Source of the DNA: Pseudomonas sp. G2-4
GTDB lineage: Bacteria > Pseudomonadota > Gammaproteobacteria > Pseudomonadales > Pseudomonadaceae
Length of the DNA stretch: 64,000 nt
Reading direction: 5' to 3'
NCBI RefSeq assembly: GCF_030064125.1
Contig: NZ_CP125957.1
Span: 5,264,501-5,328,500, forward strand
Within the stretch, counting starts at the first letter, position 1, and each line of letters opens with the position of its first letter. Positions 37,845 through 41,851 of the stretch are shown in pieces. The translations under genes and the position numbers were made by a program. The notes below the pieces were generated by a model. The model saw nothing but the letters and a program-made list of their open reading frames with translations, made no database searches and was not told the origin of the DNA.

Positions 37845-37876
37845 TTGCTCGAATAAACTAAAAGTCCATAATGGAC
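37845..37876 (+). promoter_or_regulatory. dauBA promoter with overlapping operator palindrome
   Basis: TTGCTC (37845-37850), 16-bp spacer, CATAAT (37867-37872). The palindrome GTCCAT-A-ATGGAC (37864-37876) covers the -10. A close relative of the motif is present upstream of the binding-protein gene at about 41815-41837, so it is a good candidate for the DauR site. Confidence 0.65.
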
Positions 37877-37909
37877 AAATAAGTTTAAACACGGCAACTC
37901 GGAGTCCCG

Positions 37910-38857
37910 ATGTCCAGCACGCCCTACGTGATGAACCAAGCCCAGGCCCGCGAACTACTCGCTCAGGTCGATGTGCCGCAAATCCTGCGCAAGCTGTTCC
38001 GCGATCTCGCCGCCGGGCAAGCGGTGCAACCGTCCCAGCAACTTGTGGAATTCCCCCAAGGCGCCGGGGATTTCATCAACTACCTTGGCGTGCTGGCGCA
38101 AGACCAGGTCTACGGGGTCAAGACCTCGCCCTATATCGTGCGCGAACAAGGTCCATTGGTGACCGCCTGGACCTTGCTGATGTCGATGCAGACCGGCCAG
38201 CCCCTGTTGTTGTGCGATGCCGCCGAACTGACGACCGCCCGTACCGCCGCTACCACGGCCGTCGCCGTCGATGCCCTCGCCCCGCTCCACACCCGGCGCC
38301 TCGCGGTCATCGGCAGTGGCGCAGTGGCGCGAGCCCACGTGCAGTACGTCAAGGGCTTGCGGGACTGGCAAGGTATCAGCCTCTATTCGCCTAGCCTGAA
38401 AGGCAAAACGGCACAGGAACTGGCGTCGATCACCGACTTGGACCCGCGCCTGCAAATCGCCGCCAGCCTTGAAGCAGCGCTACAGGACGCCGATGTGGTG
38501 ATGCTCTGCACCTCCTCCGCCAAAGCGGTGCTCGACCCACAGACCCTCGGCAAACCGGCGCTGATCACCTCCATCAGCACCAACGCCCCCCGCGCCCACG
38601 AAGTACCGCCGCAGAGCCTCAACGACATGGACGTGTTCTGCGATTACCGTCAGACCACGCCCGGCTCGGCCGGTGAAATGTTGATCGCTGGCGAACAGCA
38701 CGGCTGGCAGGCGTCGAGCATTGTCGGCGACTTGCCCGGACTGCTTAGCGGACAGGTCGCGCGCCCAGACTATCAACGCCATGTGTTCTTCCGCTCTATT
38801 GGCCTTGGGCTGGAAGATATTGCGCTGGCGAATGCGCTGTACCGACTTCAAAACTGA
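37910..38857 (+). CDS. dauB: NAD(P)H-dependent anabolic L-arginine dehydrogenase (ornithine cyclodeaminase family)
   Basis: In P. aeruginosa DauB reduces 2-ketoarginine with ammonia to L-arginine, completing D-to-L inversion begun by DauA. The 315 residues are of the ornithine cyclodeaminase/mu-crystallin family, with the Rossmann motif AVIGSGAVARAH near residue 135, preceded by TAARTAATTAVAV-like text (TTARTAATTAVAVDAL). The assignment to DauB instead of a cyclodeaminase rests on the dauB-dauA-dauR order. A 146-bp gap with a REPIN separates it from dauA. Confidence 0.88.
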   Translation: MSSTPYVMNQAQARELLAQVDVPQILRKLFRDLAAGQAVQPSQQLVEFPQGAGDFINYLGVLAQDQVYGVKTSPYIVREQGPLVTAWTLLMSMQTGQPLLLCDAAELTTARTAATTAVAVDALAPLHTRRLAVIGSGAVARAHVQYVKGLRDWQGISLYSPSLKGKTAQELASITDLDPRLQIAASLEAALQDADVVMLCTSSAKAVLDPQTLGKPALITSISTNAPRAHEVPPQSLNDMDVFCDYRQTTPGSAGEMLIAGEQHGWQASSIVGDLPGLLSGQVARPDYQRHVFFRSIGLGLEDIALANALYRLQN

Positions 38858-38872
38858 CACACCACATTCCCG

Positions 38873-38960
38873 TGTGGGAGCGAGCTTGCTCGCGATAGCG
38901 GTGTATCAGATAAATATATGTGGCTGACACACCGCTATCGCGAGCAGGCTCGCTCCCACA
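38873..38960. repeat. REPIN, type 1, between dauB and dauA
   Basis: Inverted type-1 pair, the right arm with one substitution (GAGCAGGCTCG). It lies inside the presumed dauBA operon. Confidence 0.92.
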
Positions 38961-39003
38961 GGGTTGTACGAACTCCCGGCAATGTGCTCCATAGGAGAGC
39001 TTC

Positions 39004-40131
39004 ATGACCTCAGCAGATTTCATCATCATCGGCGGCGGCATTGCCGGGGCTTCCACCGGTTACTGGCTGGCCCCCCACGGTCGGGTCATTGTGCTCGAGC
39101 GTGAATCCCATCCGGCCTACCACTCCACCGGACGTTCCGCGGCGCTGTACACCGCTGCCTACGGCACTCCTCAGGTACGGGCGTTGACCCAGGCCAGTCG
39201 TGACTTCTTCGACACCCCGCCGAGCGGATTTTGCGAACATCCCTTGCTCACGCCGCGTGGCGAAATGACCGTGGATTTCACCGGCGACCCCGCCGAGTTG
39301 AACAACCAGTACCTCAGCGCCAAGGCTACCGTGCCGCAAATGCAGCTGCTCAGCGCCGAAGAAGCTTGTGTGCGGCTGCCGATCCTGCGACGGGACAAGG
39401 TCCACGGCGCGATCTACGACCCCACGGCTTGTGACATCGATACCGATGCACTCCACCAAGGCTACCTGCGCGGTATTCGCCGCAATGGTGGTGAAGTGCA
39501 CACCGACAGTGAAGTGCTCGGCCTGAGTCGCGACGAACAGGGACTGTGGCAGGTGAAAACCGCCAGCCAGGCCTTCAGCGCGCCGGTGCTGATCAACGCC
39601 GCCGGCGCCTGGGCCGACCAGATCGCCGAAATGGCCGGCGCCCGGAAATTGGGGCTGCAACCCAAGCGGCGCGCGGCCTTTATCTTCGCCGGCCCCGAGG
39701 GCGTGGATATTCATGACTGGCCGATGCTGGTGAGCCTGGACGAATCCTTCTACATGAAGCCCGACGCCGGCATGTTCCTCGGTTCGCCGGCCAACGCCGA
39801 CCCGGTGGAACCTCACGACGTGCAGCCCGAAGAACTGGACATCGCCATGGGCATCTACCAGATCGAAGAAGCCACCACCCTGACCATTCGCCGGCCGACC
39901 CGCACCTGGGCCGGATTGCGCAGTTTCGTGCACGACGGTGACCTGCTGTGCGGTTTCGATCCACAGGTGCCCGGGCTGTTCTGGGTCGCGGCCCAAGGCG
40001 GCTATGGCATCCAGACCTCCCCAGCCATGGGCCAGGCCAGCGCGGCGCTGGTGCGGGGCGAACCGCTGCCCGAGGGCCTGGCCGGTTTCGGCCTGAGCAG
40101 CGCCCTGCTGTCGCCCAAGCGCCTGGGTTGA
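39004..40131 (+). CDS. dauA: FAD-dependent catabolic D-arginine dehydrogenase
   Basis: Oxidatively deaminates D-arginine (and other basic D-amino acids) to 2-ketoarginine. The 375 residues match the P. aeruginosa enzyme in length. It begins with the FAD Rossmann motif [16 protein letters not shown]. The DAO-family features [31 protein letters not shown] and a C-terminal [20 protein letters not shown] are present. It is preceded by AGGAG. With DauB it forms the two-step racemisation route. Confidence 0.93.
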
Positions 40132-40218
40132 TCCACCCAGGTGACGCATCGCCACGATTGCGGCACACTCCCCCGCGCCCCTGCTTCACGGGGCGCTGAC
40201 GCTGCCTGGAGCCCTGTC

Positions 40219-40845
40219 ATGAACGCCGCACAACCCGATCCGGCACTGGATAATTTCCGCACCATCGCCGACGCCATCGCCACGCTGTTCTATCCCCACG
40301 CCGAAGTGGTGCTGCACGATCTGCGCACGCAGAAAGTCGACTACATCGCCAACAACCTCTCCAAGCGCGAGATTGGGAATGATTCGTCCCTGGAGGATAT
40401 GCTCAGCGACGACACCCGCGAACGTAACATCGGGCCGTACGAAAAGCTGAATTGGGACGGACAGAAAATTCGCAGCCTCAGCAGCGTACTGCGCGACGCC
40501 CAGGGCCGTCCGCTGGCGGTGCTGTGCATCAACCTGAATATCTCGTTGTTCGAAAATGCCAAGGCGGCGCTGGACCTGTTCCTGTCGCCAGGCAAATTGA
40601 TCCCCCAGCCGGACTCACTGTTTCGCGATGACTGGCAGGAGCGAATCAACACCTTTCTGCACGCCTGGATGCGCGAACGTCAGTTGAGCCTGAACCTGCT
40701 GACCCGTGACCATAAACGCGAGTTGGTGCTGGCGCTGCACGCTGAAGGCGCCTTCAAGGGCAAAAGCGCCTCCAACTATGTGGCCAATGTACTGAACATG
40801 GGGCGGGCGACGGTGTACAAGCATTTGAAGGAGTTGAAGGGCTGA
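40219..40845 (+). CDS. dauR: transcriptional regulator of D-arginine utilisation
   Basis: Regulator of 208 residues with an N-terminal YheO-like PAS domain (IATLFYPHAEVVLHDLRTQKVDYIANNLSKREIGND) and a C-terminal helix-turn-helix (GKSASNYVANVLNMGRATVYKHLKEL). In P. aeruginosa DauR represses dauBA until arginine is present. The start at 40219 is chosen since the frame upstream to 40141 does not resemble the family. It follows dauA by 87 bp on the same strand. Confidence 0.9.
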   Translation: MNAAQPDPALDNFRTIADAIATLFYPHAEVVLHDLRTQKVDYIANNLSKREIGNDSSLEDMLSDDTRERNIGPYEKLNWDGQKIRSLSSVLRDAQGRPLAVLCINLNISLFENAKAALDLFLSPGKLIPQPDSLFRDDWQERINTFLHAWMRERQLSLNLLTRDHKRELVLALHAEGAFKGKSASNYVANVLNMGRATVYKHLKELKG

Positions 40846-40870
40846 GATTTGTATTGCCTGGTCTGGCGCC

Positions 40871-40962
40871 ATCGCGAGCAAGCTCGCTCCCACAAGGTAT
40901 CTGCGTCGAACACATTTTTGCGTCCAATGACATCCCGTGTGGGAGCGAGCTTGCTCGCGATA
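40871..40962. repeat. two REP elements, type 1, tail-to-tail order
   Basis: ATCGCGAGCAAGCTCGCTCC at 40871 is followed by GTGGGAGCGAGCTTGCTCGC from about 40938. The order of arms is reversed relative to the common REPIN. It lies between the convergent dauR and the binding-protein gene. Confidence 0.88.
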
Positions 40963-40970
40963 GCGATTAA

Positions 40971-41747
40971 TCAGTCGCCATAGATATCCGACTTGAAATA
41001 CTTGCTCTGGATCTTCTGATACTCCCCATTGGCCCGAATCCCATCAATGGCCTTGTTCAAGTCCGTCACCAATTCGGTATTGCCCTTGCGCACCGCGATA
41101 CCGGCACCTTCACCAACGTATTTCGGGTCCTTGAGCTCCGGCCCGACAAACGCGTAGCCCTTGCCCCGAGGCATCGACAGGAAGTCCTCCAGCGGGATGG
41201 TGTCGGCGAAAATCGCGTCCAGGCGACCGGACGCCAGGTCCATGTAGATTTCTTCGTTGTTGCTGTAGCGCTTGACCGTCACGCCCTTGGGTTCGAAGAC
41301 TTCAGTGGCGAAGCGGTCGGTGGTGGTCGCGCGCTGCACGCCCACGGTCTTGCCCTTGAGGCTGGCGTACTGGTCATCGACCACCGCCCCCTCCTTCATG
41401 ACCAGCCGCGACGAGGTGAAGTAGTACTTGTGGGTAAAATCCACCGACTTCTTGCGCTCTTCGGTGATGGTCATGGACGACAGCGCCATGTCGATTTTCT
41501 TCACCTTCAATGACGGAATCAGCCCGTCGAACTCACTCTCGATCCACTCGCACTTGACCTTCATCTGCGCGCACAGGGCATTGCCGATGTCGTAGTCGAA
41601 CCCCTCGATCTTCCCTTCCGAGGTTTTGGAAGCAAACGGCGGATAGGCCGCTTCGATGCCGATGCGCAGGGTTTTCTCAGCGGCAAACAGACTGCTGGCG
41701 GCCAACAGACTCAAGGCCAGGCCGGTGAAGAGGGGGAGCTTTTTCAT
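40971..41747 (-). CDS. basic-amino-acid ABC transporter binding protein
   Basis: Periplasmic solute-binding protein of 258 residues with the signal peptide [22 protein letters not shown]. The lysine/arginine/ornithine subgroup pattern is clear: [42 protein letters not shown] and [23 protein letters not shown]. It has no permease genes beside it and may use a transporter elsewhere. Its position facing dauBAR, as I recall also in P. aeruginosa, and the shared promoter motif point to arginine uptake in the same pathway. Confidence 0.9.
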
Positions 41748-41814
41748 GATCGATCTCTCGCGGATTGTTGTTGGTTTGGCAGAGAAAGGTGAGGCAATGA
41801 CTTTACGTGTACTT

Positions 41815-41851
41815 ATAAATCCATACTGGACTTTAATGTACAGATCGTCAA
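41815..41851 (-). promoter_or_regulatory. promoter of the binding-protein gene with the dau-type motif
   Basis: On the minus strand TTGACG (41851-41846), 17-bp spacer, CAGTAT. The -10 lies in AAAGTCCAGTATGGA, near-identical to the dauB promoter motif AAAGTCCATAATGGA; downstream bases ATAAG also match. Confidence 0.65.

Follow-up and report, generated by a model that had tools for sequence, protein, structure and literature searches.

Two sets of genes in the 6.65-Mb genome of Pseudomonas sp. G2-4, dauBAR for D-arginine conversion and a facing gene for a basic-amino-acid substrate-binding protein, were found to carry the same palindromic site over the -10 region of their promoters. Both lie in one 64,000-nt stretch, referred to below as the window. 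DauR, the regulator encoded together with dauB and dauA, very likely uses both sites as its operators, and it is equally likely that dauBAR and the binding-protein gene are repressed and induced together; comparison among genomes strongly supports such a two-target DauR regulon.

Two copies of a palindromic site

One copy, AAAGTCCATAATGGACAAATAAG, lies at 37861-37883 on the plus strand ahead of dauB, and the other, AAAGTCCAGTATGGATTTATAAG, at 41834-41812 on the minus strand ahead of the binding-protein gene. An earlier reading of the window (the original prediction) had described a motif shared by these two promoters; both copies were recovered, with 18 of 23 positions identical, at the locations given there, although the exact limits were off by 1-3 bp. 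When the motif was searched as first described (AAAGTCCANNATGGANNNATAAG, ≤3 mismatches), exactly these two matches were obtained in the window, dinucleotide shuffles averaging 0.02. Of 2000 shuffles of the two ~125-bp upstream regions, 2 gave a best shared 23-mer with ≥18 identities (P ~0.001, for this pair alone); that statistic aside, the real support for a shared site is comparative. Genome-wide, AAAGTCCANNNTGGAYWWA matched perfectly at two places, both inside the 23-mers; no place differed from it by 1 mismatch, and five differed by 2. Relaxing the search to ≤3 mismatches gave 47 forward and 49 reverse matches against 57 and 52 for a backwards control, so that there was no excess.

At the core of the site, covering the -10 region of both promoters, is the palindrome GTCCA-N3-TGGAY. 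The original prediction had the two copies but not the palindromic nature of their core (GTCCATAATGGAC at dauB). Both promoters that it had proposed, TTGCTC-N16-CATAAT and TTGACG-N17-CAGTAT, are present, with the core covering the -10 in each case. For the conserved element downstream, an outer arm (AGTTTA / AGTACA) is a more fitting description than its ‘ATAAG’, many relatives having AAATTAGTTTA. Neither promoter was reported by a sigma-70 consensus scan of 37780-41950 (0 found, 0.9 expected); what argues for both putative promoters is their conservation, not the consensus scan.

Conservation in orthologous promoters

Two sets of loci were compared: 80 Pseudomonas loci, which were the best 80 of 567 from a DauR search, and 69 loci from four genera, out of 76 of which the remaining seven were DauR relatives at ≤61%. 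Patterns were sought within 300 bp of the start of each gene, RTCCA-N3-TRGA for dauB and GTCCR-N3-TGGA for the binding-protein gene. The conservation in orthologous promoters on which the original prediction had been made to depend was observed: the site was present in 145 of 149 dauB promoters (80/80 in the first set, 65/69 in the second) and in all 113 binding-protein promoters (66/66 and 47/47). The binding-protein gene was not visible in 14 of the 80 first-set loci, in four of them because the stretch ends early. As controls, the dauB pattern occurred in 0/147 regions upstream of dauA and 1/153 upstream of dauR. With the window included, 149 of 150 dauB stretches and 113 of 114 binding-protein stretches were distinct.

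Column information, computed from sequences unweighted for relatedness, was 1.3-2 bits at the dauB half-sites and mostly 1.9-2 in the binding-protein set, where the last base was variable; it dropped in the three middle bases and was mostly <0.6 bits outside the site and the -35. The distance from site to start varied from 20 to 54 bp at dauB and from 77 to 223 bp at the binding-protein gene. In both sets mirror symmetry reached its maximum precisely at the centre of the core. In the binding-protein set the outer GTAC pairs were also symmetric (0.84, 0.97, 0.81, 0.54), and in the dauB set only some outer pairs were. By count, the centres of the GTAC arms are 10.5 bp from the inner half-sites, which should put both on one face of the helix.

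Co-occurrence of site, binding protein and DauR

In this genome DauR alone scores above the HTH_22 cut-off, and a single partial match falls short of it. In a sample of 298 genomes of the window’s family, taken as Pseudomonadaceae, DauR was present at ≥77% identity in 90, and five others had weaker relatives only. The binding protein (≥66%) was present in 91, namely the same 90 genomes and G170; its paralogues (≤64% among the matches listed) were found in DauR-less genomes too. A genome with the binding protein and without DauR was sought among the 298 as a natural negative control, and G170 alone emerged, a fragmented assembly with dauB and the binding-protein gene on two contigs, close to their ends, and with both sites present.

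An RTAC-type pattern, RTACNNNNNAGTCCANNNTGGA, matched 104 distinct places in 91 of the 298 genomes (reversed control, 2 matches); by distance to genes, 84 were assigned to the binding-protein gene, 13 to dauB, one to the dauB of G170, and six were chance-like. At the remaining seven binding-protein genes, where the pattern is not matched exactly, the core or an arm is a variant. The six other places (two in G075, one each in G269, G139, G129 and G037) were counted as chance: five lie inside open reading frames (ORFs), that of G037 lies outside, and of these genomes G269 alone has DauR. In 26 genomes the binding-protein gene and dauR are >5 kb apart or do not share a contig (15 and 11 genomes, respectively), and the exact site is present in all 26.

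A broader pattern, AARTCCANNNTGGAYWWA, was run in 80 of the 90 DauR-bearing genomes and gave 86 distinct places, 53 at dauB, 30 at the binding-protein gene and 3 elsewhere (control, 2). No conserved third DauR target was found with it in these genomes. Of the three places elsewhere, those at L213 and L214 are inside mechanical ORFs; that at L215 is not, being ~50 bp upstream of a 102-aa ORF, and it occurs in one genome only. At L215 (~4018, G122) a tract of repeated ATCCA/TGGAT-like units precedes the ORF, perhaps the target of an unrelated regulator.

DauR is thus the simplest candidate for the common regulator, because it is the only HTH_22 protein over the cut-off and because the site, the binding-protein gene and dauR are found in the same genomes.

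Occurrence beyond Pseudomonas

Among 398 genomes sampled across the phylum, a DauR relative (E up to 1e-50) was found in 14. The full 33-bp form of the binding-protein site (Table 1) was present in four of the 398, all of them among these 14 (control, 0); in one of the four, G538, it lies ~150 bp upstream of a DauR relative not adjoining dauB. In the family of G609, called Burkholderiaceae-like by inference, a DauR relative was present in 28 of 120 genomes, and an adjacent dauB was seen in 18 of the 28 loci. Upstream of dauB, a drifted site, GTCYA-N3-TRGAC, was present in 17 of these 18 loci, and in 18/18 with the end bases left free; 11 of the 18 have two. At equal base use, chance alone should place such a site in ~0.2% of regions of 420 bp. 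Eight of the 18 loci show a divergent binding-protein gene, the available sequence being short, and in G609 itself (L216) one site lies near each of the two divergent starts. The segment MGRATVYKHL, which we take for the DauR recognition helix, is identical in the Pseudomonas and G609-family proteins. That the drifted site accompanies a DauR relative keeping this presumed helix is a further reason to regard DauR as the probable regulator.

DauR relatives not adjoining dauB, examined for GTCYA-N3-TRGAC or one-step variants, gave mixed results. Among eleven such long loci, a site lies within ~170 bp of the regulator gene in three (L150, L153, L218); L219 has a near-full operator ~2 kb upstream of the DauR relative, L221 has a site only ~5 kb away, and no core-like site was found in L151, L152, L154, L155, L156 and L217. 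Of nine 3.6-kb loci (L243-L251), only L251, from the same genome as L218, has a site. In L220, where dauB lies ~1 kb upstream of the regulator, no such site was found, and a different repeat precedes dauB. In L153 (4940-5656), three core-like sites stand right before and after the gene for the dauB-unlinked relative (59%), hinting at autoregulation via the same motif.

Proposed mechanism

The original prediction that DauR co-controls D-arginine conversion and basic-amino-acid uptake is supported by the uniqueness of its HTH_22 domain, the co-occurrence across genomes, the sites at distant binding-protein genes and the drifted site beside DauR relatives, all of them comparisons of sequence. In such a scheme a DauR dimer or tetramer, possibly a dimer of dimers, would grip the inverted repeat GTCCA-N3-TGGAY straddling the -10 hexamer, aided by a second pair of half-sites (TRWAC/GTWYA) flanking it at a distance of roughly one helical turn. 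DauR on the -10 would keep RNA polymerase off, repressing the binding-protein gene as well as dauBAR. DauA would oxidise D-arginine or D-lysine, and the resulting 2-keto acid (2-ketoarginine) would release DauR. The periplasmic binding protein, which would be induced together with dauBAR, may carry the inducing amino acid, which would close a feed-forward loop of uptake and conversion. According to the available text of PMC5619798, the DauA product iminoarginine gives 2-ketoarginine, which DauB turns into L-arginine.

More tentatively, the DauR-like PAS_6/HTH_22 family as a whole might recognise a single operator of four half-sites, TGTAC-N6-GTCYA-N3-TRGAC-N6-GTACA, placed over the -10 hexamer, its outer half-sites a helical turn away from the inner ones; the binding protein, co-inherited with DauR, might be a dedicated D-arginine/D-lysine receptor; and the loop might predate the split between Pseudomonas and the relatives of Burkholderia. 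Taken jointly these propositions seem to us rather doubtful, the more so as many DauR relatives not adjoining dauB lack a nearby site.

Weighing of the evidence and of other explanations

Several observations weigh against joint control by DauR. The four dauB sites missed in the second set all read TTCCA instead of RTCCA, and the outer arms of the dauB operator are in imperfect register. Six inner bases double as the -10, so that conservation is partly promoter constraint. G170 has both sites without a DauR match. The cut between DauR-linked binding proteins (≥66%) and paralogues (≤64%) is narrow in identity, and we drew it ourselves from the matches listed. The genes adjoin in most genomes, so that co-occurrence is partly linkage, and in at least 4 of the 11 different-contig cases dauR is at a contig end, so that the two may be neighbours there as well. 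Beyond Pseudomonas, the strict 33-bp form is absent from 10 of the 14 genomes in which the phylum sample showed a DauR relative.

Arginine genes of P. aeruginosa are under the arginine regulator ArgR, and the shared site might be read by ArgR or by another, perhaps global, regulator. ArgR control of another P. aeruginosa arginine transport operon, PA5153 and its neighbours, is described in the available text of PMC2542419. A global regulator would be expected to have many sites, however, and this genome has two; moreover, 83 of the 86 AARTCCANNNTGGAYWWA places in the 80 DauR-bearing genomes are at dauB or the binding-protein gene, and in genomes without a DauR match the RTAC-type pattern is confined to G170 and five chance-like places. 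We therefore consider a regulator other than DauR improbable. That the likeness reflects two similar core promoters with no operator at all seems more improbable still. The centre of the core is indeed the -10 hexamer in both promoters, but the GTC/GAC arms and the outer GTAC arms at the binding-protein gene lie outside it and are nonetheless conserved and symmetric, the reversed-pattern control is nearly empty, and the promoter hexamers fit the consensus poorly. Least credible of all is a role of the palindrome as an RNA hairpin or terminator, for which one could cite a scan listing GTCCATTATGGAC followed by TTTTAG as terminator-like on the minus strand: the hairpin would have five pairs only, no gene is likely to read into it on that strand, the scan’s terminator-like matches are at chance level (three found, 3.1 expected), and the binding-protein site is absent from its list.

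Genes of the locus

The features of the locus are given in Table 1. DauR scored 91.6 bits with PAS_6 and then 64.8 bits with HTH_22, each above the cut-off, and no relative of this regulator family turned up when solved structures were searched by sequence. In L110, L114 and L216 there is no dauA between dauB and dauR.

Table 1. Genes, putative promoters and putative operators of the dau locus (window positions)
Feature	Position	Strand	Basis or remark
dauB promoter, TTGCTC (37845-37850), N16, CATAAT (37867-37872)	37845..37872	+	Region kept across relatives
Extended dauB operator, TAAAC-N5-GTCCA-N3-TGGAC-N6-GTTTA	37854..37887	+	Lower symmetry in the outer arms, which are shifted by one base
dauB operator core, perfect 13-bp palindrome GTCCATAATGGAC over -10	37864..37876	+	
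dauB, ornithine cyclodeaminase/mu-crystallin family (PF02423)	37910..38857	+	Pfam
dauA, flavin adenine dinucleotide (FAD)-dependent oxidoreductase, DAO family (PF01266)	39004..40131	+	Pfam
dauR, PAS_6 + HTH_22 regulator	40219..40845	+	Pfam
Basic-amino-acid substrate-binding protein, TIGR01096 above cut-off	40971..41747	-	NCBIfam
Binding-protein operator, full 33-bp four-part form, GTAC-N6-GTCCA-N3-TGGAT-N6-GTAC	41809..41841 (genome 5306309-5306341)	-	Pattern match and symmetry
Binding-protein operator core GTCCAGTATGGAT over -10	41819..41831	-	
Binding-protein gene promoter, TTGACG, N17, CAGTAT	41823..41851	-	TTGA 1.00, next C 0.96 across 113 distinct sequences

Three inverted repeats, which we take to be repetitive extragenic palindromic (REP)-like elements, have 34-47-nt arms that are 84-91% complementary. 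They lie in the dauB/dauA gap (38870-38963), 3' of dauR (40867-40965) and upstream of the binding-protein promoter (41876-41997). The first of these, inside the operon, could influence read-through.

The binding protein scored 276.1 bits with TIGR01096 (cut-off 256.35), and its best Protein Data Bank (PDB) relatives belong to the LAO/ArgT group. Taking the ligand contacts of LAO to be, in its numbering, Arg77, Asp161 and Ser69-70 for the alpha groups together with Asp11 and Leu117, most of these presumed pocket residues are kept (Arg77, Asp161, Ser69-70) and two are changed (Asp11 to Glu, Leu117 to Gln). No permease gene was seen beside the binding-protein gene in the window. In L128, L145 and L147 the binding-protein gene is followed, ahead of dauR, by genes for a PotE-like putrescine-ornithine antiporter (family score taken for L128 only) and a second SBP_bac_3 protein; in two further genomes (L148/L182 and L149/L180) these two genes come after a ~1.5-kb gap. 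In L216, the gene lying 3' of the divergent binding-protein gene has D-amino-acid dehydrogenase as its best match, at a score below the family cut-off. Such arrangements are consistent with basic amino acids, probably in their D-forms, as the putative ligands taken up.

Comparison with known systems

The regulator and the pathway are already known; what is new is the probable second target, together with the architecture of the operator and its depth. A resemblance between promoters becomes a testable two-target DauR regulon, a regulator family with no relative found by sequence among solved structures gains a sharp operator definition, and a candidate receptor for D-basic amino acids is named. 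Li, Yao and Lu (2010, Microbiology 156:60) reportedly described, for P. aeruginosa PAO1, DauR repression, its relief by 2-ketoarginine, the involvement of ArgR and dauB operators altered by mutation, and the dauB operator as such is probably already known.

In P. aeruginosa, PA3865 is annotated as an arginine/ornithine or probable amino acid binding protein in the available texts of PMC2542419, PMC3195088 and PMC8959810; at odds with these, the label PA3865 is used for a bacteriocin type in what is available of PMC9369656. By annotation PA3865 fits the window’s binding protein, and its locus number suggests a position beside PA3864. In the literature searched, which comprised accessible parts of PMC7789669, PMC2542419, PMC4836201, PMC9369656, PMC3195088, PMC8959810 and PMC5619798 and had most subscription papers outside it, we found no description of DauR control of PA3865 or of the binding-protein gene, nor of a D-basic-amino-acid receptor under DauR in Pseudomonas.

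Like ArgT/LAO of enteric bacteria, the binding protein belongs to the TIGR01096 family, has its best PDB relatives in that group and keeps the presumed alpha-group residues; unlike them, it has Glu for Asp11 and Gln for Leu117 and is encoded by a single gene under what appears to be a dau-type operator. The dau genes of the window share with dauBAR of P. aeruginosa PAO1 (PA3862-PA3864, encoding DauB, DauA and DauR) their gene order and Pfam families, which are tabulated identically in the available text of PMC7789669. Beyond the PAO1 system, the present analysis adds a probable second target, a putative operator in four parts whose outer arms are GTAC, and occurrence in a Burkholderiaceae-like family.

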